Below, one piece after another: positions 5,266-9,104 of a stretch of 45,469 bases of DNA. Position numbers and translations under genes: made by a program. Position 1 is the stretch's first letter; each line of letters opens with the position of its first letter. Under the pieces are notes generated by a model, which ran no database searches, had not been told where the DNA came from, and worked only from the letters and a program-made list of their open reading frames with translations. This DNA is from Bdellovibrionales bacterium (GTDB taxonomy: Bacteria; Bdellovibrionota; UBA1018; JADZFF01): contig JADZFF010000167.1 of assembly GCA_020850015.1 (NCBI GenBank), positions 1-45,469 of the forward strand, written 5' to 3'.

Positions 5266-6372
5266 CTATTCCACGCGAACGGGCAGCACCTTGGGCGGAG
5301 CGATCTTGGCGGGCACGATGACCTCCATGAACCTCGACGCTGACGCAGGGCTTCGGCTACCGTCGGCGGTTACGGCCCGCACGGACCAGAGGTACTTGCC
5401 ATGCTGCACACGGCTCAAGGGAAGTGACGGAATCTTGGAGCGGATCACGCGCTCCTCGGCATCGGGGTCTTCCTCCCCAGCGGCGGCGGCGGGCCGAAGC
5501 ACCACCTCGAAGACCAGGTCTTTCTGGGCCTCCGCGCTGCCTTCTTCCGGCAACTTCCACTGAAGGCGGGGCACCTCGCCCGTGGTGAGATCAAACACCG
5601 CATCAGAAGAGGGGAATACCACCTCGGGCGTGGCCGGCAGCTTGGCAACGGAAACCAGCTCGCCACCCGAGGCCATGGCCTGAGCGGTTTCCGAAACATC
5701 GGCCTCGGCGATGCTGGAGGTCAGAGCGACAGGTTCCGGGGCAGCCTGTTCCTGGGCCTCACGCGCGCCACTGGTTCCGGAAGTCACCGCCACCGGGGGC
5801 GCTTCCTGTGGCGAAGCCTGGGCCACACCTTCCCGAACGGTTTCCACCGGGGGCGGCGGCACATAGACCTGCTCCACCTCCTCCACCTGAACACGTGCCG
5901 CCACGGGTTCGGGGAGGGGCGTGGCCTGAGAGACGGAACCCTCGGAGCCGGGCGCCGCAGCCGCCGGTTTTCTGACGGGCGGAGGCGCCGCGGCGAGAGT
6001 GATCTTCTTGCGCGCTTCTTTGGCCACGCGCACCCGGCCCGTGCCGCTCAGGAACTGGAGCTGAAGCTCTTCGGAGCTCCCGGTCAGAACGATCATGGAG
6101 CCCTCTGAGAGGAGCACCTCTCCGCCCGCATAGAAGGCTAGCGTGGCCGTGCCGTCCTCGCCCGTGGCGATGGTGTCGCCAGCTCCGAAGAGCGTACCGC
6201 CCCCGGCCCGGTCCCAGGTCAGCTGGTTTAATCCAAGACGACGCACCGTACCATCTGCCATACGGAGCACGGCCACCGGCTCGCGCGCCTGGTTGAACAA
6301 ACCCGCCAGGTCCGCCCAGAAGAGCGCCCCGAAGATCAGGCTCATCAAGACGAGTGCACCGGTTCGAAGCAT
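5266..6372 (-). CDS. FecR domain-containing protein
   Basis: N-terminal TM segment; FecR-like GTVRRLGLNQLTWDRAGGGTLFGAGDTIATGEDGTATLAFYAGGEVLLSEGSMIVL; Pro/Ala-rich middle; C-terminal Fn3/Ig-like region. Confidence 0.75.
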   Translation of the reverse strand: MLRTGALVLMSLIFGALFWADLAGLFNQAREPVAVLRMADGTVRRLGLNQLTWDRAGGGTLFGAGDTIATGEDGTATLAFYAGGEVLLSEGSMIVLTGSSEELQLQFLSGTGRVRVAKEARKKITLAAAPPPVRKPAAAAPGSEGSVSQATPLPEPVAARVQVEEVEQVYVPPPPVETVREGVAQASPQEAPPVAVTSGTSGAREAQEQAAPEPVALTSSIAEADVSETAQAMASGGELVSVAKLPATPEVVFPSSDAVFDLTTGEVPRLQWKLPEEGSAEAQKDLVFEVVLRPAAAAGEEDPDAEERVIRSKIPSLPLSRVQHGKYLWSVRAVTADGSRSPASASRFMEVIVPAKIAPPKVLPVRVE

Positions 6373-6382
6373 TCCGACTCAC

Positions 6383-6488
6383 TGATCGGCGGTCCGGCGG
6401 TATCCGATTACTTTTTGATGCCTGGCGCGTCAGGGCCCTGACGCGCCCGGCCTCCAAAAGTAATCGGATACCGCGGGCCTGCCGATCA
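6383..6488. repeat. 106-bp interrupted-mismatch palindrome (two 53-nt arms, 47/53 matching, no gaps) filling the divergent intergenic region
   Basis: Arm tgatcggcggtccggcggtatccgattactttttgatgcctggcgcgtcaggg (6383-6435) against reverse complement of 6436-6488, tgatcggcaggcccgcggtatccgattacttttggaggccgggcgcgtcaggg. Confidence 0.95.
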
Positions 6489-6497
6489 GAGTAGCGG

Positions 6498-9104
6498 ATG
6501 CGTCTGACCATCGGTCGCAAACTCAATGGCTTAATCGTCGCCCTGCAGCTCATGAGCATCTGCGGGGTGGTGGTGCTTGCCGTTCAGCTGTTCACCTCGG
6601 ACCTCGAGGGGCTGCTGCGCAAGGGCACGCTCGACACCTCGTCGATCCTGGCCACCCGCGTGCGCGCCGAGATGAAACACGTGGCCGAGCGCGCCCGTAC
6701 CCTGGGCGCAGCCTCACTCGAGGACTTCAAGTACCCCGAGGACCGGTTGAAATTCCTCCAAGACAACCTGGCCGTGGACGCGCAGTACGTCGCGCTCTCG
6801 GTCTACCGCCGCGACGCCGGGGGCGCCACCTTCGCCCCACAGTGGCGCATCGTGCACCCCGAGGTGGAAAAGCGGCTTTCGCTGAAGGCCGACGATTTCA
6901 AGGCCCTGGACACCTCCTCGCCTCTCGACCTGGAGTCCGTCTCCAAAGGGGGCGTGGACTTCACGGTGGCGCGCCTCGCGGACGGCTCGCCGATCCTCCG
7001 CATGGCGCTCCCTTTCGTGAAGCGCTCGGACGGCAGCTTCTCCCAGCTCCTCGTGATGGAGCTGCAGCAGGAGAAACTCACCTCGCTCTTCGCCGAGTCG
7101 ACCTCTTACTCGAGCTTCCTGCTCGATAGCCGCGGCACAGTGCTCGGCTCCACGGATCCCAAGGCTTTCCCTCTGGGCTTCCCGATGGGTCAGAGCCCCG
7201 TGTTTGAACGTCTGCGCCAGAACAAGGACTCGGGCCAGATCGACTACACCGACTCCGAGGGCGAAACCCAGATGGCGGGTTTCCGCGCCGTGGGCTTCGC
7301 GAACCTCGCCGTCGTGACCCAGGTACCGATCGCGCGCGCGCGCGTGGCGCAGTCGCAGCTCCTTCGCCGCACGGCCTTCCTGGCCGGGGCTTTCCTCTCG
7401 CTCGCGCTCGCGCTGGGCTTCTGGTTCTCGCAGGGGATCACCGGCCCCATCCGCGCCCTGGCCGACGCCGCCCGCAGGGTGAAGGACGGCGATTTCTCCG
7501 TACGGCTCCCTTCGAAAGCGAAGCCCGGGGCCGAGGCCCAGGGCGACGAGGTTCAGCAGTTCGCGGGCACCTTCAACGAGATGGTGGGCGGCCTCGAGGA
7601 GCGCGACCGGGTGAAAGCCACCTTCGCGAAGTTCCACTCCAAGGAGATGGCCGAAAAAGTTCTGAGCGGCGAGCTGAAGCTCGGCGGAGAGCGCAAGGAC
7701 GCCACCGTGTTCTTCTCTGACGTGCGCGGCTTCACCGCCATGAGCGAAAAGATGGACCCGGAACAGCTCGTGCAGATCCTGAACCGCTACATGACCCGCA
7801 TGGTGCGCGTGATCTTGGAGCACGGCGGGATCGTGGACAAGTACGTCGGCGACGCCATCATGGCCGTCTGGGGCGTGCCACTCTCGAAGGATGGCGACGT
7901 GGAGCGCGCGGTGCGTGCCTGCATCGACATGCGGATATCCCTGGCAGAGCTGAACGAGGAGCTCATCAATGAGGGTTTGCCGGTGCTGAAGATCGGCATG
8001 GGCCTGAACCACGGCCCACTGATCTCGGGCAACATCGGCTCCGAGGAGCGCATGGAGTTCACCGTGATCGGCGACACCGTGAACACGGCCTCCAGGATCG
8101 AGTCGCTCACGAAGGCCTTCGGCACCGATCTCCTGGTGAGCCAGGAAGTGGTGAATCAGTGCGAGGGCCTCTTCGTGGTGGAGAAAGCCCACGAGGCGAA
8201 GGTGAAGGGCAAAGCCGAGGCGCTCGTGATCTACAAGGTGAACGGCACTATCGAAGAGGGCCGCGAGGTGCTCGTGGAGACCCCCTACAGCTCGTACCCC
8301 GCCGAGAAGAGCGACAAGGTAGAGAGCACGGGCGAGGAGAAGGAGAAGGAGAAAAAGACCGCGAAGCTCGAGCAACCCGCCACGACGCCGGCGACTGAGA
8401 CCGCGCCGCAGATCGAGGCGTCGGAGCTCCGCCAGCTCTGGCAGGACCAGGCCGAGCTCGGGGTGGTGCGGGAGCTCTTCGGGCTGATGCGCGAGGGACT
8501 CACACTCCCTGATTTCTGTTCGCGCACCCTGGAGATCGCCGCGGATCTGTTCCAGATGAATCACGCGCTGTTCCTTGAGTTGCGCGACGGCGTGGACCAC
8601 GGCAGCGTGCAGCTTTTCACCCGCGCACAGTACGGGGCCTCCGGCGCAGAGGCCTCCTGGTCGGGGCAGGACCTCTGGGACCGCTTCTGCGAGGCGGACC
8701 GAGCCGAGGTCCAGGAATTCCTGGGCCACCAGGGCGCGAACGCCCTCCTGCTCGAGGGCCCCATGGATGAGGATGCTCTGCTCGGCGGCGGAGGCTCCGA
8801 TCTCGAGGAGGAGATCGACACGCCGGACGAGCAGGCCGAGCTCCACCTCTCCAAGCGCATCGTGGCGGCCTTTTACGGCGCCGCCCCCGAGAGACCGGAA
8901 GTGCTGCTCATCCCCCTGGTGATCCGGAGCCGGCTCTACGGCTGCCTCGCCTTCTACGGATCCCCCGACCGCATGTGCGGCCGGGACGAGATCTTCCTGT
9001 CGGCGACTCGTTTCGGCGAGGCCGTGGCCACCCTCCTCGAATACCGCTTCATGCTGGCCTGGACGAGAGACTTGGGAACGGAGAATGAAGCCGCTGCTGC
9101 GTAG
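6498..9104 (+). CDS. Class III adenylate/guanylate cyclase with periplasmic sensor, HAMP and C-terminal GAF-like region
   Basis: TM helices flank a periplasmic region; HAMP-like ITGPIRALADAARRVKDGDFSVRLP; cyclase core VFFSDVRGFTAMSEKMDPEQLVQILNRYMTRMVRVILEHGGIVDKYVGDAIMAVWGVP...FTVIGDTVNTASRIE. Confidence 0.9.
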   Translation: MRLTIGRKLNGLIVALQLMSICGVVVLAVQLFTSDLEGLLRKGTLDTSSILATRVRAEMKHVAERARTLGAASLEDFKYPEDRLKFLQDNLAVDAQYVALSVYRRDAGGATFAPQWRIVHPEVEKRLSLKADDFKALDTSSPLDLESVSKGGVDFTVARLADGSPILRMALPFVKRSDGSFSQLLVMELQQEKLTSLFAESTSYSSFLLDSRGTVLGSTDPKAFPLGFPMGQSPVFERLRQNKDSGQIDYTDSEGETQMAGFRAVGFANLAVVTQVPIARARVAQSQLLRRTAFLAGAFLSLALALGFWFSQGITGPIRALADAARRVKDGDFSVRLPSKAKPGAEAQGDEVQQFAGTFNEMVGGLEERDRVKATFAKFHSKEMAEKVLSGELKLGGERKDATVFFSDVRGFTAMSEKMDPEQLVQILNRYMTRMVRVILEHGGIVDKYVGDAIMAVWGVPLSKDGDVERAVRACIDMRISLAELNEELINEGLPVLKIGMGLNHGPLISGNIGSEERMEFTVIGDTVNTASRIESLTKAFGTDLLVSQEVVNQCEGLFVVEKAHEAKVKGKAEALVIYKVNGTIEEGREVLVETPYSSYPAEKSDKVESTGEEKEKEKKTAKLEQPATTPATETAPQIEASELRQLWQDQAELGVVRELFGLMREGLTLPDFCSRTLEIAADLFQMNHALFLELRDGVDHGSVQLFTRAQYGASGAEASWSGQDLWDRFCEADRAEVQEFLGHQGANALLLEGPMDEDALLGGGGSDLEEEIDTPDEQAELHLSKRIVAAFYGAAPERPEVLLIPLVIRSRLYGCLAFYGSPDRMCGRDEIFLSATRFGEAVATLLEYRFMLAWTRDLGTENEAAAA

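Follow-up and report, generated by a model that had tools for sequence, protein, structure and literature searches.

Between a leftward FecR-like gene and a rightward class III cyclase gene of a Bdellovibrionales bacterium, an intergenic region of 125 bp is occupied by a palindrome of 106 bp, which raises the question of whether this sequence is a regulatory device of the locus or came to stand there in another way. In the window (the whole stretch of 45,469 nt analyzed here, contig JADZFF010000167.1), the arms 6383-6435 and 6436-6488 pair without gaps at 47 of 53 positions around the centre CAGGG|CCCTG (axis 6435/6436), which reconfirms the palindrome described in the initial annotation; the leader sequences quoted there for both genes are also correct. 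A weaker symmetry extends outward to 6373 and 6498, where an inverted-repeat search gives 63-nt arms matching at 84% (6373-6498). Three of the six arm mismatches fall within a repeat element at 6399-6472 and three in its flanks. Folded as single-stranded DNA, this 74-nt core reaches -33.7 kcal/mol versus -9.4 ± 2.0 in 200 dinucleotide shuffles (z -12.4), none of which matched the real energy. In an Rfam scan of 6300-6600, nothing came up except microRNA models matching a hairpin below threshold. Both outer ends of the palindrome, 6383-6390 and 6481-6488, read GCCGATCA and lie outside the repeat, at 10 nt from the FecR-like start codon (6372, minus strand) and 9 nt from that of the cyclase (6498).

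Each arm of the core follows the unit GGTATCCGATTCCC-NNN-TGATGC-N5-GCGTCA, where TGATGC and GCGTCA form a small inner hairpin, and is followed by the centre and then the mirror image. The pattern GGTATCCGATTCCC-NNN-TGATGC, with up to three mismatches, finds 20 arms in the 3.44-Mb genome, spread over 13 contigs, and its reversed control gives 0 matches there; the conserved blocks are thus not specific to this locus. BLAST with the whole region places copies on C101, C58, C25, C28, C82, C18, C26, C197 and others, many of them matching on both strands, and the block AAAAGTAATCGGATACCGC recurs on C101 with one mismatch; the copy counts come from these pattern and BLAST searches. Dimers are present on C168 (the window), C25, C28, C58, C68, C135 and C197, as well as on C18, where the contig end cuts the dimer, and single arms on C26, C82, C63 and C101. 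Most copies adjoin ORFs or stand between them, those on C197 and C101 being ambiguous in the mechanical ORF list. The copies on C18, C26, C28, C68 and C82 are located about 30 nt or less from a contig end, as would be expected for a repeat that breaks the assembly, and the true copy number is probably higher.

A comparison of seven aligned dimers shows 98.7% of arm cells paired. In 11 of 34 arm pairs both partners have changed, and none of 500 shuffles reaches this covariation score; the variable positions differ among copies, while within any one copy the two arms agree. In the window copy, the left arm departs from the family consensus by CCC>ACT after GGTATCCGATT, and the right arm departs from the left at three positions in all, made up of the change of TGATGC to GGAGGC and of one loop base. 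With its TGATGC lost, the right arm is decaying. Regarding the insertion sites, the copies on C101 (L006 ~1489-1544) and C135 (L083 690-774) are centred in the short palindromes CGTTTGC|GCAAACG and CGTCTG|CAGACG, and the copy on C58 (L007 1444-1538) has the flanks TGA|TCA, also a short palindrome; the flanks of the C197 copy are not palindromic. A preference of the element for palindromic targets, as reported for some REP families (PMC3733652), is hinted at by these flanks.

A candidate for the enzyme that moves these repeats is encoded in the same genome, where four Y1_Tnp matches are found and one, an ORF on contig C127, is over the Pfam cut-off. This ORF contains PNHIHM and YVYRNPVRAGL, the HUH motif and catalytic tyrosine motifs of a REP-associated tyrosine transposase (RAYT), and matches NCBIfam REP_Tyr_transpos (NF047646) with E=1.8e-22 and 79.8 bits, just below the 80-bit cut-off, and PDB TnpArep 4er8 with E=1.4e-5, being the clearest RAYT gene of the genome. 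Inverted copies of the repeat flank it at C127:6944-6966 and 7673-7695. Its protein is matched in 26 of 57 relatives, and, among the orthologues examined, five clearly possess their own inverted termini of 37-43 nt, of which several end in GCGTCA. Because the RAYT stands between inverted copies and the RAYTs of relatives have their own inverted termini, the 6399-6472 element is identified as a dimer of the terminal inverted repeat (TIR) of the C127 RAYT; its identity as a REPIN-type element, taken by itself, is nearly certain. The inverted REPs and their short spacer form one hairpin, the family is multicopy, dispersed and mainly extragenic, and the cognate RAYT is flanked by the REP. Within the order, the RAYT orthologues at L138, L139, L141, L142 and L143 show long, lineage-specific inverted termini, several with the inner motif GCGTCA. 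The other Y1_Tnp-like ORFs, on C177, C29 and C199, are below the cut-off and have no copy of the present repeat within the loci examined around them. These three (L061, L062 and L063) constitute a second, weakly RAYT-like set of open frames of 225-271 aa with similar sequences, in at least three copies.

The inverted REP doublet with a short spacer, able to form a hairpin, resembles the REPINs of Pseudomonas fluorescens SBW25 (Bertels and Rainey 2011, PMC3116915), and so do its dispersal, the associated tyrosine transposase gene and the compensatory changes between arms, which were reported earlier in that system. However, the present family has a different end sequence, GGTATCC, and lacks the GTAG tag, the tetranucleotide being absent 5' of the palindrome, where the repeat arms begin GGTATCC. 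Also, copies are found on about 13 contigs instead of the hundreds of copies of SBW25, and the window copy is placed between divergent genes, whereas, according to PMC3733652, REPs otherwise stand mostly between genes that converge or that run in the same direction. As in the CGTC-tagged REPs of the same study, a CGTC motif is present within each arm (GCGTCA), but that class was rejected: here CGTC is paired in the small hairpin instead of being an unpaired tag, and the family flanks a RAYT gene, while CGTC REPs are reported without an associated transposase. With GTAG absent and CGTC paired, the closest class is that of the TIRtrons/TIRYTs (Di Nocera and colleagues 2013, PMC3733652), mostly of subclass 2.1 (PMC6006769), which share with the present family a RAYT-like gene with long flanking terminal inverted repeats, as well as repeats that lack GTAG and occur as dispersed dimers. 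Unlike in TIRtrons, the GGGGWSAS motif is absent here, and several TIRs of the present lineage have GCGTCA at the inner end.

A comparison with relatives indicates what the locus looks like when the palindrome is absent. The divergent FecR-like/cyclase arrangement recurs in G005, G016 and G035, whose cyclase is at about 61%. Tblastn with the FecR-like protein extends it, through weaker matches, to L027, L095, L096 and L092, and the remaining cyclase loci have a leftward ORF at the same place. At 13 orthologous loci, the divergent reading frames are 61-183 bp apart, and palindrome arms measure 4-7 nt at best (one of 10/12), against 48/54 in the window; among 57 relatives, a single related repeat arm was found, in G035. 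Because the divergent pair exists in relatives without a long palindrome, the 6399-6472 element is best read as an insertion between the two genes. A true empty site was not seen among the relatives searched, as cyclase identity reaches only about 61-63% in the nearest of them and none belongs to the same family. Moreover, the -10 boxes described below are separated by 30 bp in L090/L091 and by 16 bp in the window when the element is set aside, and therefore the history of the insertion is not a simple cut and paste: either some sequence was lost or the ancestor differed.

The mirrored leaders are a separate feature, older than the palindrome. The sigma-28 (FliA) promoter consensus of E. coli is TAAAGTTT-N11-GCCGATAA. 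Scored against dinucleotide shuffles, this consensus gives a Fisher p=2.8e-9 over 26 directions at 13 orthologous loci with the window excluded, a value that is too small as the loci are related, and p=0.007 for each direction in the window. In 12 of 14 loci, counting the window, CCGA precedes the start of the leftward (FecR-like) ORF by 11-14 nt. Most relatives (L089-L093, L095, L097-L099) show a conserved sigma-28-like -10 box about 8-11 nt ahead of the start codon of the cyclase-divergent ORF. In L090 and L091, inspection finds TAAA and TTGA in the 30 bp between two CCGAAAA boxes, and this intergenic region is predicted to hold two overlapping, opposed promoters of sigma-28 form. FliA is encoded in the genome (C120, E=5.3e-54, truncated by the contig edge) and is present in all 27 relatives searched. 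There are seven flagellin-domain matches in the genome, and the flagellin upstream regions gave no more than modest sigma-28 matches. On its own, GCCGATCA is not rare (nine sites in the GC-rich window), and the general pattern TNAA-N16-SCCGAW is no commoner in the window than by chance; in a genome BLAST, the GCCGATCA-like matches on C184, C143 and C15 stand before no convincing start codons, and no genome-wide regulon is shown. Taken together, the orthologous promoters suggest that a flagellar-type sigma factor has the FecR-like/cyclase pair as a conserved target within the order, and the position of the -10 boxes, so near the start codons, suggests that transcripts made under FliA would be nearly leaderless.

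These comparisons bear on the explanations offered by the initial annotation. An inverted duplication of promoter plus leader would account for the flanks outside the element being mirrored too (GATCGGC on both sides), but the core is present at many unrelated loci, the mirrored flank motif occurs in both directions in orthologues without the palindrome, and the blocks kept in both arms turn out to be the ends and the inner motif of a dispersed transposable repeat. Sigma-28-like promoters that match in both directions also stand in the orthologues; the mirrored leaders therefore do not stem from a duplication of the present segment, and such a duplication is very improbable. Mirror-image control of the two genes is nonetheless probable, given the same -10-like boxes at the same distance from the start codons and the sigma-28-like promoters both ways in orthologues. 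A coupling of FecR and the cyclase by a locus-specific operator or cruciform agrees with the strong hairpin, yet is equally hard to sustain when orthologous pairs lack the palindrome and the same sequence stands beside unrelated genes elsewhere; the kept blocks, which had been taken as a sign of selection, thus give no evidence for an operator. The least probable explanation is a contig folded back on itself at the hairpin. Such events do exist in this assembly: in C28 (L009 1501-1601) and C68 (L020/L078 1501-1602), what follows the palindrome is an exact reverse complement of what precedes it, retracing the flanks over the last 26-27 nt of the contig, and these fold-backs are assembly artefacts at perfect REPIN hairpins. 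In the window copy, however, the arms differ at 3 of 37 positions, the flanks differ, and two different genes, paired in relatives too, stand on the two sides, in agreement with the earlier view that no read artefact is involved.

If the element is an insertion into an older promoter region, what matters is its position relative to the -10 boxes. The element stands between the two boxes with an 8-nt flank on each side and, because it fills the gap in this way, TAAT falls exactly 16 nt upstream of each GCCGATCA, 16 being the predominant spacing in orthologues. The arrangement TAAT-N16-GCCGATCA on both sides, with similar pairs in orthologues, is like that of E. coli sigma-28 promoters, although the spacing is one base longer and the -35, matched at three of four positions, is partial and inside a mobile element. 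The remaining 19 matched arms read GAAT, not TAAT, at this position (GGTATCCGATTC). TAAT either arrived with the inserted dimer, as the arms of one copy stay alike, or was selected after the insertion. We favor, with moderate confidence, the insertion of a REPIN into a bidirectional sigma-28-like promoter, its ends supplying a putative -35 on both sides. That the same G-to-T change was fixed in both arms because it restored the -35 in both directions, keeping the genes co-regulated, is a more tentative proposal.

The main competitor is an insertion devoid of any promoter role, neutral debris beside genes whose transcription depends on other signals or on the -10 boxes alone. The decay of the right arm, the incomplete match of TAAT (3/4) to the -35 and the dispersal of the family regardless of the FecR-like/cyclase pair speak for it, but the intergenic region measures only 125 bp and the boxes are 9-10 nt from the start codons, so that the promoters nearly must overlap the element, and the N16 spacing on both sides is the same as in most orthologous promoters. 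Neutral debris is therefore possible but somewhat doubtful. The coordinates of the features are collected in Table 1.

Table 1. Features of the FecR-like/cyclase intergenic region and its two genes in the window
Feature	Position	Strand	Evidence
REPIN-type element, inverted dimer of 34-nt REP/TIR, centre GGGCCC	6399..6472	.	same-genome copies; fold z -12.4
Left REP arm GGTATCCGATTACTTTTTGATGCCTGGCGCGTCA	6399..6432	+	family alignment, fold
Small hairpin TGATGC-CTGGC-GCGTCA in left REP arm	6416-6432	+	fold
Right REP arm, mirror of left arm	6439..6472	-	arm comparison, family alignment, covariation
Putative sigma-28-type -10 box GCCGATCA, FecR-like gene, 10 nt before start codon	6383..6390	-	orthologue comparison
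Putative sigma-28-type -10 box GCCGATCA, cyclase gene, 9 nt before start codon	6481..6488	+	orthologue comparison
Putative -35 TAAT, FecR-like gene, in left REP arm, 16 nt from -10 box	6407..6410	-	sequence, orthologue promoters
Putative -35 TAAT, cyclase gene, in right REP arm, 16 nt from -10 box	6461..6464	+	sequence, orthologue promoters
FecR-domain-like protein, 368 aa	5266..6372	-	Pfam FecR E=0.0053, below cut-off; L089 orthologue above cut-off
Sensor protein, HAMP + class III adenylate/guanylate cyclase domain, 868 aa	6498..9104	+	Pfam Guanylate_cyc E=1.9e-27, HAMP 1.2e-7

Under the co-option that we favor, a non-autonomous dimer of the RAYT terminal repeat, presumably mobile as a single-stranded hairpin through an IS200/IS605-like HUH transposase, would have inserted between the -10 boxes of the older bidirectional sigma-28-like promoter of the FecR-like and class III cyclase genes. 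Both GCCGATCA boxes would have survived, the element ends probably replacing both -35 elements (TAAT-N16-GCCGATCA), and both genes would probably still be expressed, each from a promoter that mirrors the other and takes its -35 half from the element. In this scheme, the repeat family, its association with the RAYT, the lack of the palindrome in relatives and the promoter-like motif common to the orthologues are read from the sequences themselves, and transposition by the C127 RAYT, the use of sigma-28 and the function of the new -35s are inferred.

Finally, what seemed to be a unique regulatory palindrome becomes a mobile-element insertion of a known kind. The interest of the locus would then reside less in the element than in its ends, which may act as promoter parts in both directions. 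If this co-option is true, one symmetric insertion gave promoter halves to two genes at once, which would represent a simple route for REPIN-type repeats to rewire divergent promoters.
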